DNA of 64,000 nucleotides. Origin: Constantimarinum furrinae. Its GTDB lineage: Bacteria; Bacteroidota; Bacteroidia; Flavobacteriales; Flavobacteriaceae. A program made the translations under genes and the position numbers. Within the stretch, counting starts at the first letter, position 1; every line of letters begins with the position of its first letter. The notes below the pieces were generated by a model. It did not search any database. It was not told where the DNA came from and was given only the letters and a program-made list of their open reading frames with translations. Positions 16,366 to 64,000 of the stretch are shown here, in pieces. Where the stretch lies: assembly GCF_014295415.1 (NCBI RefSeq), contig NZ_CP052909.1, positions 2,294,001 through 2,358,000 on the forward strand. Direction: 5' to 3'.

Positions 16366-16716
16366 ATGGCAATCATAATAACAGATGAATGTATCAATTG
16401 CGGAGCCTGTGAACCCGAATGCCCTAACACGGCAATCTACGAAGGTGCCGATGATTGGCGTTATGCAGATGGAACAGATCTGGAGGGAACTGTAGTACTT
16501 CCGAATGGAAAACAGGTAGATGCCAATGAGACTCAGGAGCCTGTAAGTGATGAAATTTATTATATAGTTCCCGATAAGTGTACCGAATGTAAAGGCTTCC
16601 ATGAAGAGCCTCAATGTGCTGCTGTTTGTCCGGTAGATTGCTGTGTCCCGGATGAGGATCACGTAGAAAGTGAAGAAACCTTATTGGCTAAACAGTCCTT
16701 TATGCATAAAGAATAA
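16366..16716 (+). CDS. 4Fe-4S dicluster ferredoxin
   Basis: A 116-residue ferredoxin. The first cluster motif [12 protein letters not shown] (C-x2-C-x2-C-x3-C) starts near residue 9, and the second set [18 protein letters not shown] is in the C-terminal half, so two [4Fe-4S] clusters are expected, with an unusually long acidic insert between them. The ATG at 16366 is preceded by a purine-rich GAAAAAGAAAAA stretch and by a good promoter. The frame is open for 19 codons upstream, but these cover the promoter. The acyl-CoA reductase is divergent. The partner enzyme is unknown. Confidence 0.93.
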
Positions 16717-59905: not shown

Positions 59906-60901
59906 TTAGTAAAATTTTACTTCTATTCTTCGGTTAGCTTCTCTACCGCGCTGCGAGTTATTCGTATCTATAGGATCCGATTCTCCCTTAGAGGAAGCGA
60001 TCACTTGTTTTCTATCCAAATTACCTTTGGTGATAAGATACCAGCGTACTTGTCTGGCATAATCCAGGCCTGCAATATAATTGTCGGTGTCATTCCCTAC
60101 ATTGTCGGTATGTCCCGTAATTTCTATGGTAATATCGGGTTTTTCCTGAACAATTCGAATTACCTGTGCTAAAAGGTTGGTAAGTTCCTCGTTAACAAGG
60201 ATTCCGCTGGATGAATATTTGGGATATATGGTAACGGGCTCAGGGATCCTACTTTTTAAGGTTGCCAGTCTAGCCTGATCCAGAGGTTTAAATAAAAAAG
60301 AAATACTATTCTCATAATTTCCTTTGTGATCAAAATCTATTTCTTTGATAATGGGTTTTACAACGATTTTATTTCTTGGAATACCAATTTCCATTAGCAA
60401 TTGCTTTATTTTATTTCCCCTTTGAATACCGAGATTTGGCGATTGAATATTTTCGGTAGCACTGTAGAGAGAGAGTATATGCAATTCCATATCAGGGTGT
60501 TCGATCAAATAACTATTTAGTCGGTATTTAAAATCTTTTGCAGACTCCGGAACATAGATCTCGGGACTATTTTTATTGATTGAGATTCCTTCAGGGTATA
60601 AAAACAGGATGTCGTCTTCCGCAGTTGTGGCCTTAAGGGCGGTTTTTGAAATGCTTTCTGAAAGTCTTTTTTCGGAACTCAATATCAGGGAATCGCCTTC
60701 CGTTCGAATCATAGAAATAGAATCTTTAGGAATAAGGGTTTTTTCAATTGCTGAAGTATCCACCGAATCTGATTGCACAGCTGCTGTCGTTATTGAAGTG
60801 TCCAGCGCCATTTCTTTTTTAGGCTGGAGAAGGGAATACAACCATAACCCAAAAAAAGACCATACCAAAAAAACGGCGAAGGCTATTAAAAAATTCTTCA
60901 T
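59906..60901 (-). CDS. OmpA-family peptidoglycan-binding protein
   Basis: A 331-residue protein with an N-terminal membrane helix (about residues 4-24, anchoring it in the inner membrane or acting as a signal), a linker region, an OmpA-like part about 95-200, and the classical OmpA C-terminal domain about 215-331 with EITGHTDNVGNDTDN and NSQRGREANRRIEVKF. The C-terminal domain should bind diaminopimelate-containing peptidoglycan. It is the first gene of the unit with the helix-hairpin-helix and symporter genes. The first half may be a second degenerate OmpA domain, with SLYSATENIQSPNLGIQRG in the same order. Confidence 0.85.
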   Translation of the reverse strand: MKNFLIAFAVFLVWSFFGLWLYSLLQPKKEMALDTSITTAAVQSDSVDTSAIEKTLIPKDSISMIRTEGDSLILSSEKRLSESISKTALKATTAEDDILFLYPEGISINKNSPEIYVPESAKDFKYRLNSYLIEHPDMELHILSLYSATENIQSPNLGIQRGNKIKQLLMEIGIPRNKIVVKPIIKEIDFDHKGNYENSISFLFKPLDQARLATLKSRIPEPVTIYPKYSSSGILVNEELTNLLAQVIRIVQEKPDITIEITGHTDNVGNDTDNYIAGLDYARQVRWYLITKGNLDRKQVIASSKGESDPIDTNNSQRGREANRRIEVKFY

Positions 60902-61035
60902 TGCGGGGGTAATAGGTTGTTTGTTACTCCGTTTAGCTCATAAAACACGGGACTCTAACAAATCTATAAAATATATTTTCGATTTGTGAGTAAAATATTA
61001 CTTCTTTTCCACAAAATTTTGAACAATATTTTGTT

Positions 61036-61043
61036 TACATTTG
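61036..61043 (+). promoter_or_regulatory. -7 element of the his operon
   Basis: TACATTTG matches TAnnTTTG, 9 bases before the leader-peptide ATG, so the transcript would start almost at the leader gene. No -33 element is obvious at the usual distance. Confidence 0.55.
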
Positions 61044-61052
61044 TCCCGTACA

Positions 61053-61106
61053 ATGAGAAACACAAATTTACATCATCATATTTCATTCTTCGCTCACGCG
61101 AGGTGA
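61053..61106 (+). CDS. his operon leader peptide
   Basis: A 17-codon frame starting at the ATG at 61053 and ending at TGA 61104-61106. It reads MRNTNLHHHISFFAHAR, with histidine codons 7-9 and 15, a strong enrichment for such a short frame. It lies just after the -7 element and before a terminator that precedes hisG. This is the layout of a ribosome-mediated attenuator, in which stalling at His codons under histidine shortage would favour read-through. It is not of the enterobacterial sequence type. Confidence 0.8.
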   Translation: MRNTNLHHHISFFAHAR

Positions 61107-61137
61107 TGAGGTATTTGTAAATTTTAAAAATATCCGT

Positions 61138-61169
61138 AACCCGTTTGAGCTAATCAAACGGGTTTTTTT
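61138..61169 (+). terminator. attenuator terminator of the his operon
   Basis: AACCCGTTTGA (61138-61148), loop GCTAA, TCAAACGGGTT (61154-61164), a perfect 11-bp stem, then seven T. It ends 18 bases before the hisG ATG. Upstream, AATTTACA (61064-61071, before the His codons) can pair with TGTAAATT (61116-61123), which could be part of the alternative fold. Confidence 0.85.
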
Positions 61170-61186
61170 ATGCCTAAAAATTAACT

Positions 61187-62044
61187 ATGAAAAAATTAAA
61201 AATTGCATTACAAAAATCGGGTCGGCTTCACGATGAGTCTCTTAGGTTGCTGAAAGACTGCGGTATTTCAATAGATAATGGAAGAGATCAACTTAAAGCA
61301 ACTGCGAAAAACTTCCCGATGGAAATCTACTATTTGCGAAATGGCGATATCCCAAAATATCTCATGGATGGCGTCGTGGATTGTGCGATAATTGGAGAAA
61401 ATCTTATCGTGGAAAAAGGGATCGATATCATCGTGAAGGAAAAACTCGGGTTTTCAAAATGCAGGGTATCTATCGCTGTTCCCAGATCATTTGAGTATAG
61501 TGATATTCAAGATCTTCAGAATAAGCGAATTGCCACGTCATATCCCGAAACTACTCGAAAATTCATGGAGTCGCAGGGTCTGGAAGCTGAGTTGCATATT
61601 ATAAACGGGAGCGTTGAGATCGCGCCTAACATCGGACTTTCAGATGCAATTTGTGATATAGTGAGCAGTGGAAGTACCCTGTTTAAAAATAATCTTCAGG
61701 AAGTAGCAGTCATCATGGAAAGTGAAGCTGTTCTTGCTGTCTCACCAAAATTGGAGTCTTCAGCAGACAAACTTTTACAACAATTGGCCTTTAGAATACA
61801 ATCGGTTTTAAAAGGTCGCAGCTATCGATATGTGCTGCTTAATGCTCCAAACAATAAAATCGAGGCCATAGTGGAAATACTTCCGGGGATGAAGAGCCCT
61901 ACCATTCTTCCATTGGCCGAGGCAGGATGGAGCAGTGTTCATTCTGTAGTAAACCGCGATGTGTTTTGGGAAGTGATAGAAGAATTAAAACAACATGGAG
62001 CAGAAGGAATTCTGGTTTGTCCTATTGAAAAAATGGTATTATGA
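61187..62044 (+). CDS. hisG: ATP phosphoribosyltransferase HisG, long form
   Basis: First enzyme of histidine synthesis: joins ATP and PRPP. The 285-residue protein is of the long form with the C-terminal regulatory ACT-like domain (residues about 210-285, VEILPGMKSPTILPLAEAGW), so HisZ is not needed and histidine feedback is expected. The catalytic domain shows IALQKSGRLHDES and the PRPP loop DIVSSGSTLFKNN near residue 160. The stop overlaps the hisD start by four bases (ATGA). It is controlled by the leader/terminator upstream. Confidence 0.95.
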   Translation: MKKLKIALQKSGRLHDESLRLLKDCGISIDNGRDQLKATAKNFPMEIYYLRNGDIPKYLMDGVVDCAIIGENLIVEKGIDIIVKEKLGFSKCRVSIAVPRSFEYSDIQDLQNKRIATSYPETTRKFMESQGLEAELHIINGSVEIAPNIGLSDAICDIVSSGSTLFKNNLQEVAVIMESEAVLAVSPKLESSADKLLQQLAFRIQSVLKGRSYRYVLLNAPNNKIEAIVEILPGMKSPTILPLAEAGWSSVHSVVNRDVFWEVIEELKQHGAEGILVCPIEKMVL

Positions 62045-63336
62045 TGAATATAATAATGGAACCGGAGAAAGCAATATGGGAATCGATAGTGTCTCGTCCG
62101 GAGTATGCGGTCAAAGACCTGGACGATTTGGTAAATGATATGTTTTCTGAAATCCAAAAAAGAGGAGACGATGCAGTTCGAAATTATACAGCCCTGTTCG
62201 ATGGTATTTCAGTAAAGGAAATTCAGGTAACAGAAGCAGAAATTCAAAATGCAGTGTCGCAAGTTCCCGATAAGCTGAAACAGGCAATTCAACAGGCAAA
62301 AATGAATATTGAATCCTTTCACAGCGCACAGCTGTCAAAAAATAGTAGGGTTGAAACCGTTCCTGGAGTGAACTGCTGGACTGAAAGAAGGCCTATAGAA
62401 AAGGTGGGGATCTATATACCTTCAGGGACAGCTCCTTTATTTTCAACAATTCTTATGCTGGCGATTCCTGCAAGACTTGCAGGTTGCGAAACCATAGTTA
62501 TGTGTACTCCTCCTAAAGAAAATAACCTCATTGATCCGGTAATGTTATATGCTGCTAAATTGTGCGGTATCTCAATTATTTGCAAGGTTGGTGGAATTCA
62601 ATCGATTGCGGCTATGGCACTGGGGACGAAATCGGTTCCAAAGGTCTACAAGATCTATGGCCCCGGAAACCAGTTTGTCACCGCTGCGAAACAAATGGCC
62701 ACCCGATATAAAACCGCTATAGATATGCCCGCCGGACCATCAGAGTTGCTGGTCTATGCAGACGACACGGCCAAACCGGCTTTTGTGGCTTCCGATTTGT
62801 TGAGTCAGGCAGAACACGGTGTCGATAGTCAGGTAATCCTGCTTTCTCCATCAAAGAAACTTTTGGATCGCGTTATTATTGAGTTGAGTGCTCAGCTTCA
62901 GTCACTTCCCCGGAAATCGATCGTAGAGAAAGCACTAAATCACTCTAGATTTATTCAGATTAAAAACAGGTCAACAGCAATTGAATTTATTAATGAATAC
63001 GCACCCGAACACTGTATAGTAATTTCTGAAGACGAGCAATTTATATTAGAGAATATACGAAATGCCGGGTCGGTATTTATTGGAAATTACACGCCTGAAA
63101 GTGCTGGAGATTATGCTTCAGGTACAAACCATACCCTACCAACAAATGGATTTGCAAAACAATATTCGGGAGTGAACTTGGATAGTTTTACCAAACAGAT
63201 CACTTTTCAGAAAATTTCCAAATTAGGAATACAGAATATAGGAAATATTGTGGAGCTCATGGCAGAAGCAGAAGGATTGCAAGCACACAAGAATGCAGTG
63301 ACAATTCGATTAAATGATATTAGAAATGAAAGATAA
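62041..63336 (+). CDS. hisD: histidinol dehydrogenase HisD
   Basis: Last enzyme of histidine synthesis: oxidises L-histidinol to L-histidine in two NAD steps, using zinc. The 431-residue protein starts at 62041 in the ATGA overlap; Met2 and Met6 are also possible. IYIPSGTAPLFSTILMLAIPA near residue 120, DMPAGPSELLVYAD near 232 with LLSQAEHGVDSQ near 257 (metal ligands), and NEYAPEHCIV near 320 are all present. hisC follows with an 11-base overlap. Confidence 0.96.
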   Translation: MMNIIMEPEKAIWESIVSRPEYAVKDLDDLVNDMFSEIQKRGDDAVRNYTALFDGISVKEIQVTEAEIQNAVSQVPDKLKQAIQQAKMNIESFHSAQLSKNSRVETVPGVNCWTERRPIEKVGIYIPSGTAPLFSTILMLAIPARLAGCETIVMCTPPKENNLIDPVMLYAAKLCGISIICKVGGIQSIAAMALGTKSVPKVYKIYGPGNQFVTAAKQMATRYKTAIDMPAGPSELLVYADDTAKPAFVASDLLSQAEHGVDSQVILLSPSKKLLDRVIIELSAQLQSLPRKSIVEKALNHSRFIQIKNRSTAIEFINEYAPEHCIVISEDEQFILENIRNAGSVFIGNYTPESAGDYASGTNHTLPTNGFAKQYSGVNLDSFTKQITFQKISKLGIQNIGNIVELMAEAEGLQAHKNAVTIRLNDIRNER

Positions 63337-64000
63337 AAATTCGATTTTAGAACTGGTGAGACCTGCCATTGCAGACTTAATTCCTTACCGCTCGGCGCGT
63401 GAAGAATTCAGCCAAACGACTCGCGAAATGGTTCTTTTGGATGCAAATGAGAGCCCGTATTCGTCGGAGGTAAACCGATATCCCGATCCACAACAACGGG
63501 AGCTTAAGGCATTGATCTCAAAACTTAAAGGGGTAAACCTCAATTCTATTTTGCTAGGCAATGGTAGTGACGAAGTGCTGGATCTGATATTCCGGGTATT
63601 TTGTGAACCCGGAATCGATAATGTGATCACTCTGCCACCCACTTATGGGATGTATAACGTACTGGCTGGAATAAATAATATCGAAAATATTGAGGTTCCG
63701 CTGACATCTAAGTTTGAACCCGATGTTGACAACATTCTGAAGTCACAGAATAGCCAATCGAAGGTACTTTTTCTCTGTTCACCAAATAACCCAACTGGAA
63801 ATCGCTTTCAGGATAAAAATATCATTCGGTTATTAAAACAATTTAGAGGAATTGTCGTGATCGATGAAGCATATATTGACTTTTCTGAACATGACGGATT
63901 TATCAACCAGCTAAGTAAATTCTCTAACCTTATAATAGTTCAAACCTTTTCAAAAGCATTTGGAATGGCCGGAATTCGATTAGGGATGTGTTTTGCTTCG
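63326..64000 (+). CDS. hisC: histidinol-phosphate aminotransferase HisC (partial)
   Basis: PLP enzyme that converts imidazole-acetol phosphate to histidinol phosphate. Only 225 residues are visible, because the gene runs off the right edge. The start ATG 63326-63328 overlaps the hisD stop by 11 bases and begins MKDKNSILELVRPAI. The substrate and PLP blocks seen are LDANESPY near 39, LGNGSDEVLD near 78, SPNNPTGN near 152 and VIDEAYIDF near 177, with the PLP Lys in TFSKAFGMAGIRLG near 211. The rest of the operon is outside the window. Confidence 0.95.
   Translation, partial: MKDKNSILELVRPAIADLIPYRSAREEFSQTTREMVLLDANESPYSSEVNRYPDPQQRELKALISKLKGVNLNSILLGNGSDEVLDLIFRVFCEPGIDNVITLPPTYGMYNVLAGINNIENIEVPLTSKFEPDVDNILKSQNSQSKVLFLCSPNNPTGNRFQDKNIIRLLKQFRGIVVIDEAYIDFSEHDGFINQLSKFSNLIIVQTFSKAFGMAGIRLGMCFAS

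Follow-up and report, generated by a model that had tools for sequence, protein, structure and literature searches.

The window analyzed here is a stretch of 64,000 nucleotides from Constantimarinum furrinae. The beginning of a histidine biosynthetic operon lies near its end in the order hisG, hisD, and hisC, and a promoter box, a His-rich frame, and a hairpin with a T tract are found upstream of hisG (Table 1). The hisG product was identified with TIGR00070 at 183.7 bits (cut-off 75.75), and truncation at the window end brings the score of hisC under the whole-protein cut-off of 276.55. In the genome of origin homoserine dehydrogenase is present, and a PF00800 search of that genome returned no prephenate dehydratase.

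Table 1. Features at the hisG end of the window (positions in the window)
Feature	Position	Strand	Basis or remark
-7 promoter element TACATTTG (exact TAnnTTTG)	61036-61043	+	sequence
His leader frame MRNTNLHHHISFFAHAR, 17 codons, stop included in the interval	61053-61106	+	sequence; putative translation
Regulatory His codons of the leader frame	61071-61079	+	
Fourth (further) His codon of the leader frame	61095-61097	+	
Protector hairpin	61064-61124	+	predicted fold, -20.8 kcal/mol, z -4.15
Protector P1	61064-61072/61116-61124 (9 bp) plus 61078-61087/61105-61114		
Protector P2	61088-61093/61098-61103		hairpin tip carrying the last leader codons
Antiterminator hairpin	61092-61150	+	predicted fold, -21.8 kcal/mol, z -4.30
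Intrinsic terminator, perfect 11-bp stem, loop GCTAA	61138-61148/61154-61164	+	T tract to 61169
hisG, ATP phosphoribosyltransferase, first operon gene	61187-62044	+	TIGR00070 and TIGR03455 above cut-off
hisD, histidinol dehydrogenase	62041-63336	+	TIGR00069, 511 bits
hisC, histidinol-phosphate transaminase, truncated by the window end	63314-64000	+	TIGR01141, 229 bits

The codons of the leader frame are ATG AGA AAC ACA AAT TTA CAT CAT CAT ATT TCA TTC TTC GCT CAC GCG AGG TGA TGA, with the stop at 61104-61106 and a second TGA directly after it. The frame begins nine bases after the promoter element. A sequence-only reading of this DNA had described the -7 element, the nine-base spacing, the 17-codon frame with four His codons (three consecutive), and the perfect 11-bp terminator stem followed by hisG, and all of these are present in the sequence. 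The expectation by chance was estimated by counting, on either strand of the window, the frames of 7-40 codons that open with ATG, each nested start being taken as a separate frame. Three consecutive His residues are encoded by 2 of the 987 short frames, namely the leader and a minus-strand frame at 16391-16501, numbered from the 5' end of the minus strand. When the 285-nt intergenic region was shuffled 5000 times (mononucleotide shuffles), such a frame arose in 6 cases. One terminator-like site was found within 60900-61250, compared with 0.2 expected. The combination of leader and terminator is real and well above chance.

The promoters of Flavobacterium psychrophilum are described as carrying a TAnnTTTG box at -12 to -5 (PMC9723704), and Bacteroidota mRNAs as lacking Shine-Dalgarno sequences (PMC6847099). 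From the position of the box in the window we infer a transcription start at about 61048, approximately 5 nt ahead of the leader AUG, and the leader frame is thus apparently near-leaderless, with hardly any RNA ahead of it. An exact TAnnTTTG box within 45 nt of the leader ATG was found at 35 of 103 Flavobacteriaceae loci (described below), compared with 32 of 515 shuffled upstream windows. The distance from the box to the leader AUG is bimodal, at about 7-8 and 17-19 nt, among the 79 of 183 loci that have an exact box, and part of the leaders would therefore begin almost at the RNA 5' end.

The region upstream of hisG was compared across the phylum and across the family. A HisG scan of named genomes provided 41 loci, and a His-rich frame was found at 40 of these, all from Bacteroidota by title; none was found at the single Chloroflexi locus. 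A phylum-wide draw of 296 genomes, 252 of them with hisG, contributed 90 further loci, which together with the 41 scanned loci, the window, and its duplicate L042 make up 133 phylum-wide rows. Permissive leader criteria (at least three His codons, two of them close together, within 330 nt) were passed by 108 of the 133 rows, several of which (L049, L053, L065, L074, L112, and L120, among others) look spurious, and 25 rows were without a leader. A strong terminator is found in 80 rows, which include the window and L120 and exclude the duplicate L042.

For the family, hisG was detected in 167 of 199 Flavobacteriaceae genomes (one per genus), and 110 of those loci (30 + 80) were used. Three of the family loci are also in the first set (L138 = L096, L162 = L116, and L204 = L038). 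Relatives without the His codons and the terminator had been named in the sequence-only reading as evidence that would speak against attenuation; both elements are present at 103 of the 110 loci, or 103 of the 109 uncut ones. Among the seven exceptions, L220 is cut by a contig end, and L228 (genome G314) has a covariance-model match directly before hisG, which indicates that the frame criteria missed the leader there. A set of 183 loci was also assembled by requiring an ATG start for hisG (12 loci dropped), with L029 in place of L120. At L090 and L093, hisG may start at TTG, beside a His leader and a stable hairpin. The earlier proposal of a lineage-specific attenuator holds for the layout and not for its narrowness, since leaders built on this logic are spread over several families of the phylum.

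Alignment A1 was built from 48 sequences picked for a CCGYYUG-type arm for alignability, a choice that lowers the variation visible in it. Covariance model R1, made from A1, was run on 60 Flavobacteriaceae genomes and matched 51 of them with one strong match each, the match in the window's own genome being given by construction; no second strong copy was detected in any of the 60. By coordinates, 45 of the 51 strong matches lie directly upstream of hisG, the place of hisG is unlisted for 5, and 1 is a relic. Eight of the nine genomes without an R1 match are without a hisG match, and the ninth was outside that hisG search. Three weak extra matches (E 1e-4 to 9e-4) have the terminator and no His frame. 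At L244 (genome G321, contig 11, from about 14524 downward), an intact-looking leader and terminator are followed by approximately 23 hisG codons that run into unrelated sequence. That genome has no hisG match, and L244 is a relic attenuator left by a lost his operon.

The homologues of the terminator stem in A1 are 99.2% paired, and compensatory double changes are seen at 5 of 10 pairs, a count reached by 1 of 500 shuffles. Upstream of the terminator, the leader RNA of the window is predicted to form a protector hairpin, the energy of which was reached by 0 of 200 shuffles, and in the fold of the full RNA this hairpin and the terminator are preferred together. Pairing of the P1 type, between the 5' codons of the leader and the region after the stop, is significant (p ≤ 0.05) at 108 of the 183 loci, with p = 0.06 in the window. 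For P2, 82.5% pairing was found in A1, with 1 of 5 pairs changed on both sides, and the P2 register of the window differs from that of the alignment; P2 is therefore the weaker helix.

The pairing AATTTACA/TGTAAATT had been put forward earlier as the best candidate for the antiterminator. The pairing itself is real, since it is part of the 9-bp stem that closes the protector hairpin at its base, and comparable pairing exceeds shuffles at the 108 loci given above. It contacts neither arm of the terminator, so it would be unable alone to prevent the terminator, and both are predicted together in one fold. This candidate was rejected as the antiterminator, a role that is extremely unlikely for it.

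A different antiterminator was obtained when the 5' part of the leader was removed, which mimics a ribosome on the His codons, and the RNA was folded up to the terminator loop. In the predicted structure, GCUCA-GCG-GGU from the last leader codons and AUG-GGUAUUU after the stop pair with AAAUAUC-CGU-ACC-CGU-UGAGC, and most of the terminator 5' arm is consumed. By this model, the antiterminator is composed of the last leader codons (from 61092) and the terminator 5' arm (to 61150). One C/U mismatch leaves the short core of the window at p = 0.10, and the significance in the window comes from the extended hairpin (Table 1), not from the short duplex.

Complementarity between the terminator 5' arm and the leader region is significant (p ≤ 0.05, dinucleotide shuffles) in 55 of the 80 phylum-wide rows, 20 of them at the floor set by 200 shuffles, and near the leader end at 84 of the 103 family loci. 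The paired leader segment lies mostly at about 14 to 5 nt upstream of the stop codon's end in Flavobacteriaceae and Bacteroidales, and at other places near the stop outside these groups. The pairs differ by lineage with complementarity kept: CUCAAGCG/CGUUUGAG, CAGGCG/CGUCUG, AUCAGGUG/CGCCUGAU, and GUAAGCC/GGCUUAC. Remote lineages have a different terminator arm (such as GGCUUACC), and the end of the leader is altered accordingly.

In alignment A1, the homologue of the 8-bp antiterminator core has 94.6% standard pairs over the 48 sequences, compared with 22-48% in slid registers. Cells changed on both sides number 20, where shuffles give 5.5 and none of 500 comes as high, and the covariation score of the core exceeds that of all shuffles; relatedness among the sequences can inflate the excess in these two measures and in the paired cells. 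The number of double-change pairs (2) and of pair types (8) shows no excess, with 195 and 308 of 500 shuffles as high, respectively, so A1 taken by itself draws on few variable pairs.

The dependence of the fold on translation was simulated by blocking 29 nt around a His codon, around the stop, or not at all, and folding the leader up to the terminator loop; the extent of upstream pairing by the terminator 5' arm was used as the readout. The mean upstream pairing over the 80 rows is 0.71 with the ribosome on the His codons, 0.26 at the stop, and 0.42 without a ribosome. Pairing is greater on the His codons than at the stop by more than 0.2 in 70 of the 80 rows and the reverse is seen in 0; for shuffled leaders the values are 126 of 800 and 95, with real leaders averaged over the His cluster and one His codon used per shuffled leader. 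In the family set, where the identical codon was used for real and shuffled leaders, the corresponding counts are 95 of 103 and 0 for real leaders and 40 of 309 and 34 for shuffles. Pairing with the ribosome on the His codons exceeds ribosome-free pairing in only 50 of the 80 phylum-wide rows. For the window, values of 0.80, 0.13, and 0.79 were obtained on the His codons, at the stop, and without a ribosome, respectively. With 0.79 in the absence of a ribosome, the window RNA favors the antiterminator at equilibrium, and its OFF state would depend on folding order, in which P1/P2 would form ahead of the antiterminator.

The elements of an attenuator are thus found together at this locus. A short frame rich in His codons, with putative translation, precedes a his biosynthetic operon; an intrinsic terminator stands between the leader and the first gene hisG; the antiterminator and the terminator are mutually exclusive, as they share the terminator 5' arm; and the position of the ribosome, on the regulatory codons or at the stop, decides the fold in silico. 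The element is, by this model, a ribosome-mediated transcription attenuator of the his operon, with a probability of approximately 0.92. Ribosome-mediated attenuation, as first suggested from the DNA alone, is strongly supported by the family-wide leader and terminator, by covariation, and by the ribosome-mask folding. What computation shows is that these parts exist and are conserved, that terminator and antiterminator covary, and that the fold changes with the place of the ribosome; translation, stalling, the order of the folding events, and actual termination and read-through are inferred, as set out below.

RNA polymerase would start at the site predicted by the promoter box. On an empty leader, P1/P2 would form first and hide the antiterminator strand, and the terminator could then form. 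When His-tRNA is ample, the ribosome would reach the stop at 61104 and cover the antiterminator strand (61092-61104 and beyond); the terminator 5' arm would then pair only with its 3' arm, and transcription would stop. When His-tRNA is short, the ribosome would stall on the regulatory His codons and cover the 5' side of P1/P2, leaving GCUCACGCGAGGU free. This segment would pair with the emerging terminator 5' arm, no terminator would form, and hisGDC would be transcribed. The fourth His codon is inside the antiterminator strand, and stalling there would therefore not help.

The His-rich frame might alternatively encode a functional small peptide, for instance one that binds metal, with the hairpins incidental. 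The peptides do end alike within Flavobacteriaceae (such as HFHTCTQAS), and the RNA accounts for the conserved QA terminus, since the codons of QA, CUCAAGCG, are the antiterminator strand. Phylum-wide, the peptides have little in common beyond clustered His codons, and a second strong copy is lacking from all 60 genomes searched with R1. A peptide function of this kind has very little probability.

At L045, L047, L048, and L054, leaders of 26-28 codons with 10-11 His codons end 57-71 nt before hisG, and the terminator-like stems there are weak only. These loci are perhaps a translational or Rho-dependent relative of the attenuator.

Many relatives contain a further complementarity in which the six apical bases of the terminator 5' arm, the loop, and the next two bases match a segment before hisG. 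Examples are GUUUGAGUAAAUC/GAUUUACUCAAAC and GUUUGAGACAAUC/GAUUGUUUCAAAC, and the segment is seen at L008, L103, L025, L034, L157, L187, and others. Of 79 phylum-wide rows, 25 show this third pairing at p ≤ 0.05 (10 at the floor), as do 63 of the 93 family loci with a spacer of at least 20 nt (45 at the floor); the spacer was too short for the test at 10 of the 103 family loci. The loci's own pairs average -11.3 kcal/mol, compared with -7.7 kcal/mol for arms with other loops, and are among the best 5% of swaps at 52 of the 93 family loci. The two central loop positions display U-A to A-U and A-U to C-G exchanges in either direction among 42 loci, which were selected for third pairing and arm length. 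The last paired base lies 14-19 nt upstream of the hisG AUG at 34 of these 42 loci and farther away at 8. The distribution is patchy, with at least 21 changes in presence on the HisG tree. Covariation between loop and segment on the tree amounts to only 3 independent pairs, with an average of 2.9 in the same direction, at loci chosen beforehand for pairing.

The third segment is absent from the window's own genome. The segment before hisG in the window gave p = 0.84 against the terminator arm and loop, and the T tract is separated from the hisG AUG by 17 nt; a translational lock in the window itself is unsupported. When 25 relatives were folded at equilibrium, the terminator stem prevailed over the third pairing, which stayed at 0.00-0.10 in each of the three ribosome states, and a simple equilibrium switch in cis is thus unsupported by that calculation. 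When the terminator 3' arm was blocked, third pairing reached 0.85 at L034, 0.84 at L088, and 0.53 at L016, and at most 0.42 in the other 22. A second hairpin between the downstream region and the hisG start codon was significant (p ≤ 0.05) at only 29 of 93 loci and is not claimed.

It is conceivable, at somewhat less than even odds, that in many Flavobacteriaceae and some Bacteroidales the arm and loop are a three-way strand shared by the leader end, the 3' arm, and the segment before hisG, by which translational control of hisG would be added in cis or in trans. The rnTrpL of Sinorhizobium meliloti is an attenuator RNA that acts in trans, and it is a possible parallel for the pairing of the loop with the hisG region. 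In the relatives studied here, by contrast, the complementary sequence is part of the transcript itself, immediately upstream of hisG, and no action in trans is known. The peptide peTrpL is the subject of PMC7298713.

The same pairing bears on the view that a translated leader controls hisG mainly through translation or Rho-dependent termination, with the hairpin an ordinary stem. The extra segment that pairs with the terminator arm in many Flavobacteriaceae agrees with this view, as do the distant relatives L045, L047, and L054, where leaders with 10-11 His codons end 57-60 nt before hisG and stem scores are 12-16 against a threshold of 24. The stem in the window is, however, a typical intrinsic terminator with a T tract and is kept with compensatory changes in the 48 aligned sequences. 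Control of this kind is very unlikely as the main mechanism, and transcription attenuation is the preferred reading.

Amino-acid attenuators have been worked out mainly in Proteobacteria. The enterobacterial his leader has a layout of three hairpins in a row, and is represented in Rfam by RF00514 (His_leader). It has in common with the window the His-codon frame, the terminator, the antiterminator, the hisG-first operon, and the use of ribosome position as the sensor. The window differs in placing the antiterminator strand within the final leader codons and the stop, in having P1 enclose P2 in place of three hairpins in a row, and in combining a Bacteroidota promoter with a near-leaderless start. 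RF00514 had no match in the window even at E ≤ 10, a level at which 16 matches were obtained there, and none in the loci of eight relatives. No Rfam family, the T-box families included, reached its gathering score in the window or in these eight loci. RF00513 (Trp_leader) aligned with 61085-61171 at 25.6 bits, below the gathering score of 41; no Trp codon is present within the window's leader frame, and the resemblance is probably due to a similar layout of hairpins.

Clues for leader-peptide attenuation ahead of amino-acid operons have been described in F. psychrophilum, where hisG and pheA are among the genes with structured 5' elements that are found in other Flavobacteriaceae and have no Rfam hits (PMC9723704). 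From what that paper states of it, the hisG element is very probably the same as that of the window; the main-text parts compared contain no leader sequence, antiterminator, covariation, or distribution beyond the family. In Bacteroides thetaiotaomicron, small frames reminiscent of leader peptides are described in long 5' UTRs (PMC7366714). Histidine leader peptides are described in bacilli ahead of hisZ and hisS* (PMC2965389); as presented there, these resemble the window in that a short frame with a run of His codons lies upstream of the attenuated gene, and differ in the genes and the phylum. According to the same 2010 survey, leader-peptide systems had been known only in Proteobacteria and Actinobacteria, Firmicutes were added, and no similarity was seen between the leaders of Firmicutes and Proteobacteria; words beginning with Bacteroid or Flavobacter do not occur in its main text. 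PMC4833913 deals with leader genes across many phyla, among them Bacteroidetes, and with the attenuation of hisG in gamma-proteobacteria, and it refers to a comparative study published in 2010 by Lopatovskaya and colleagues. The coverage of that 2010 paper apart, the literature searched holds no description of a his attenuator for Bacteroidota beyond the papers cited.

The mechanism is already known in kind. As far as these searches go, there is no earlier description of the layout, of the antiterminator and its covariation, of how widely the element is distributed, or of the extra pairing ahead of hisG. The element provides a precise, testable model of an attenuator for Bacteroidota, and annotators could use it to name a leader frame that is covered by no Rfam family. 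If the third pairing is functional, a single RNA strand would govern both the transcription and the translation of an operon.
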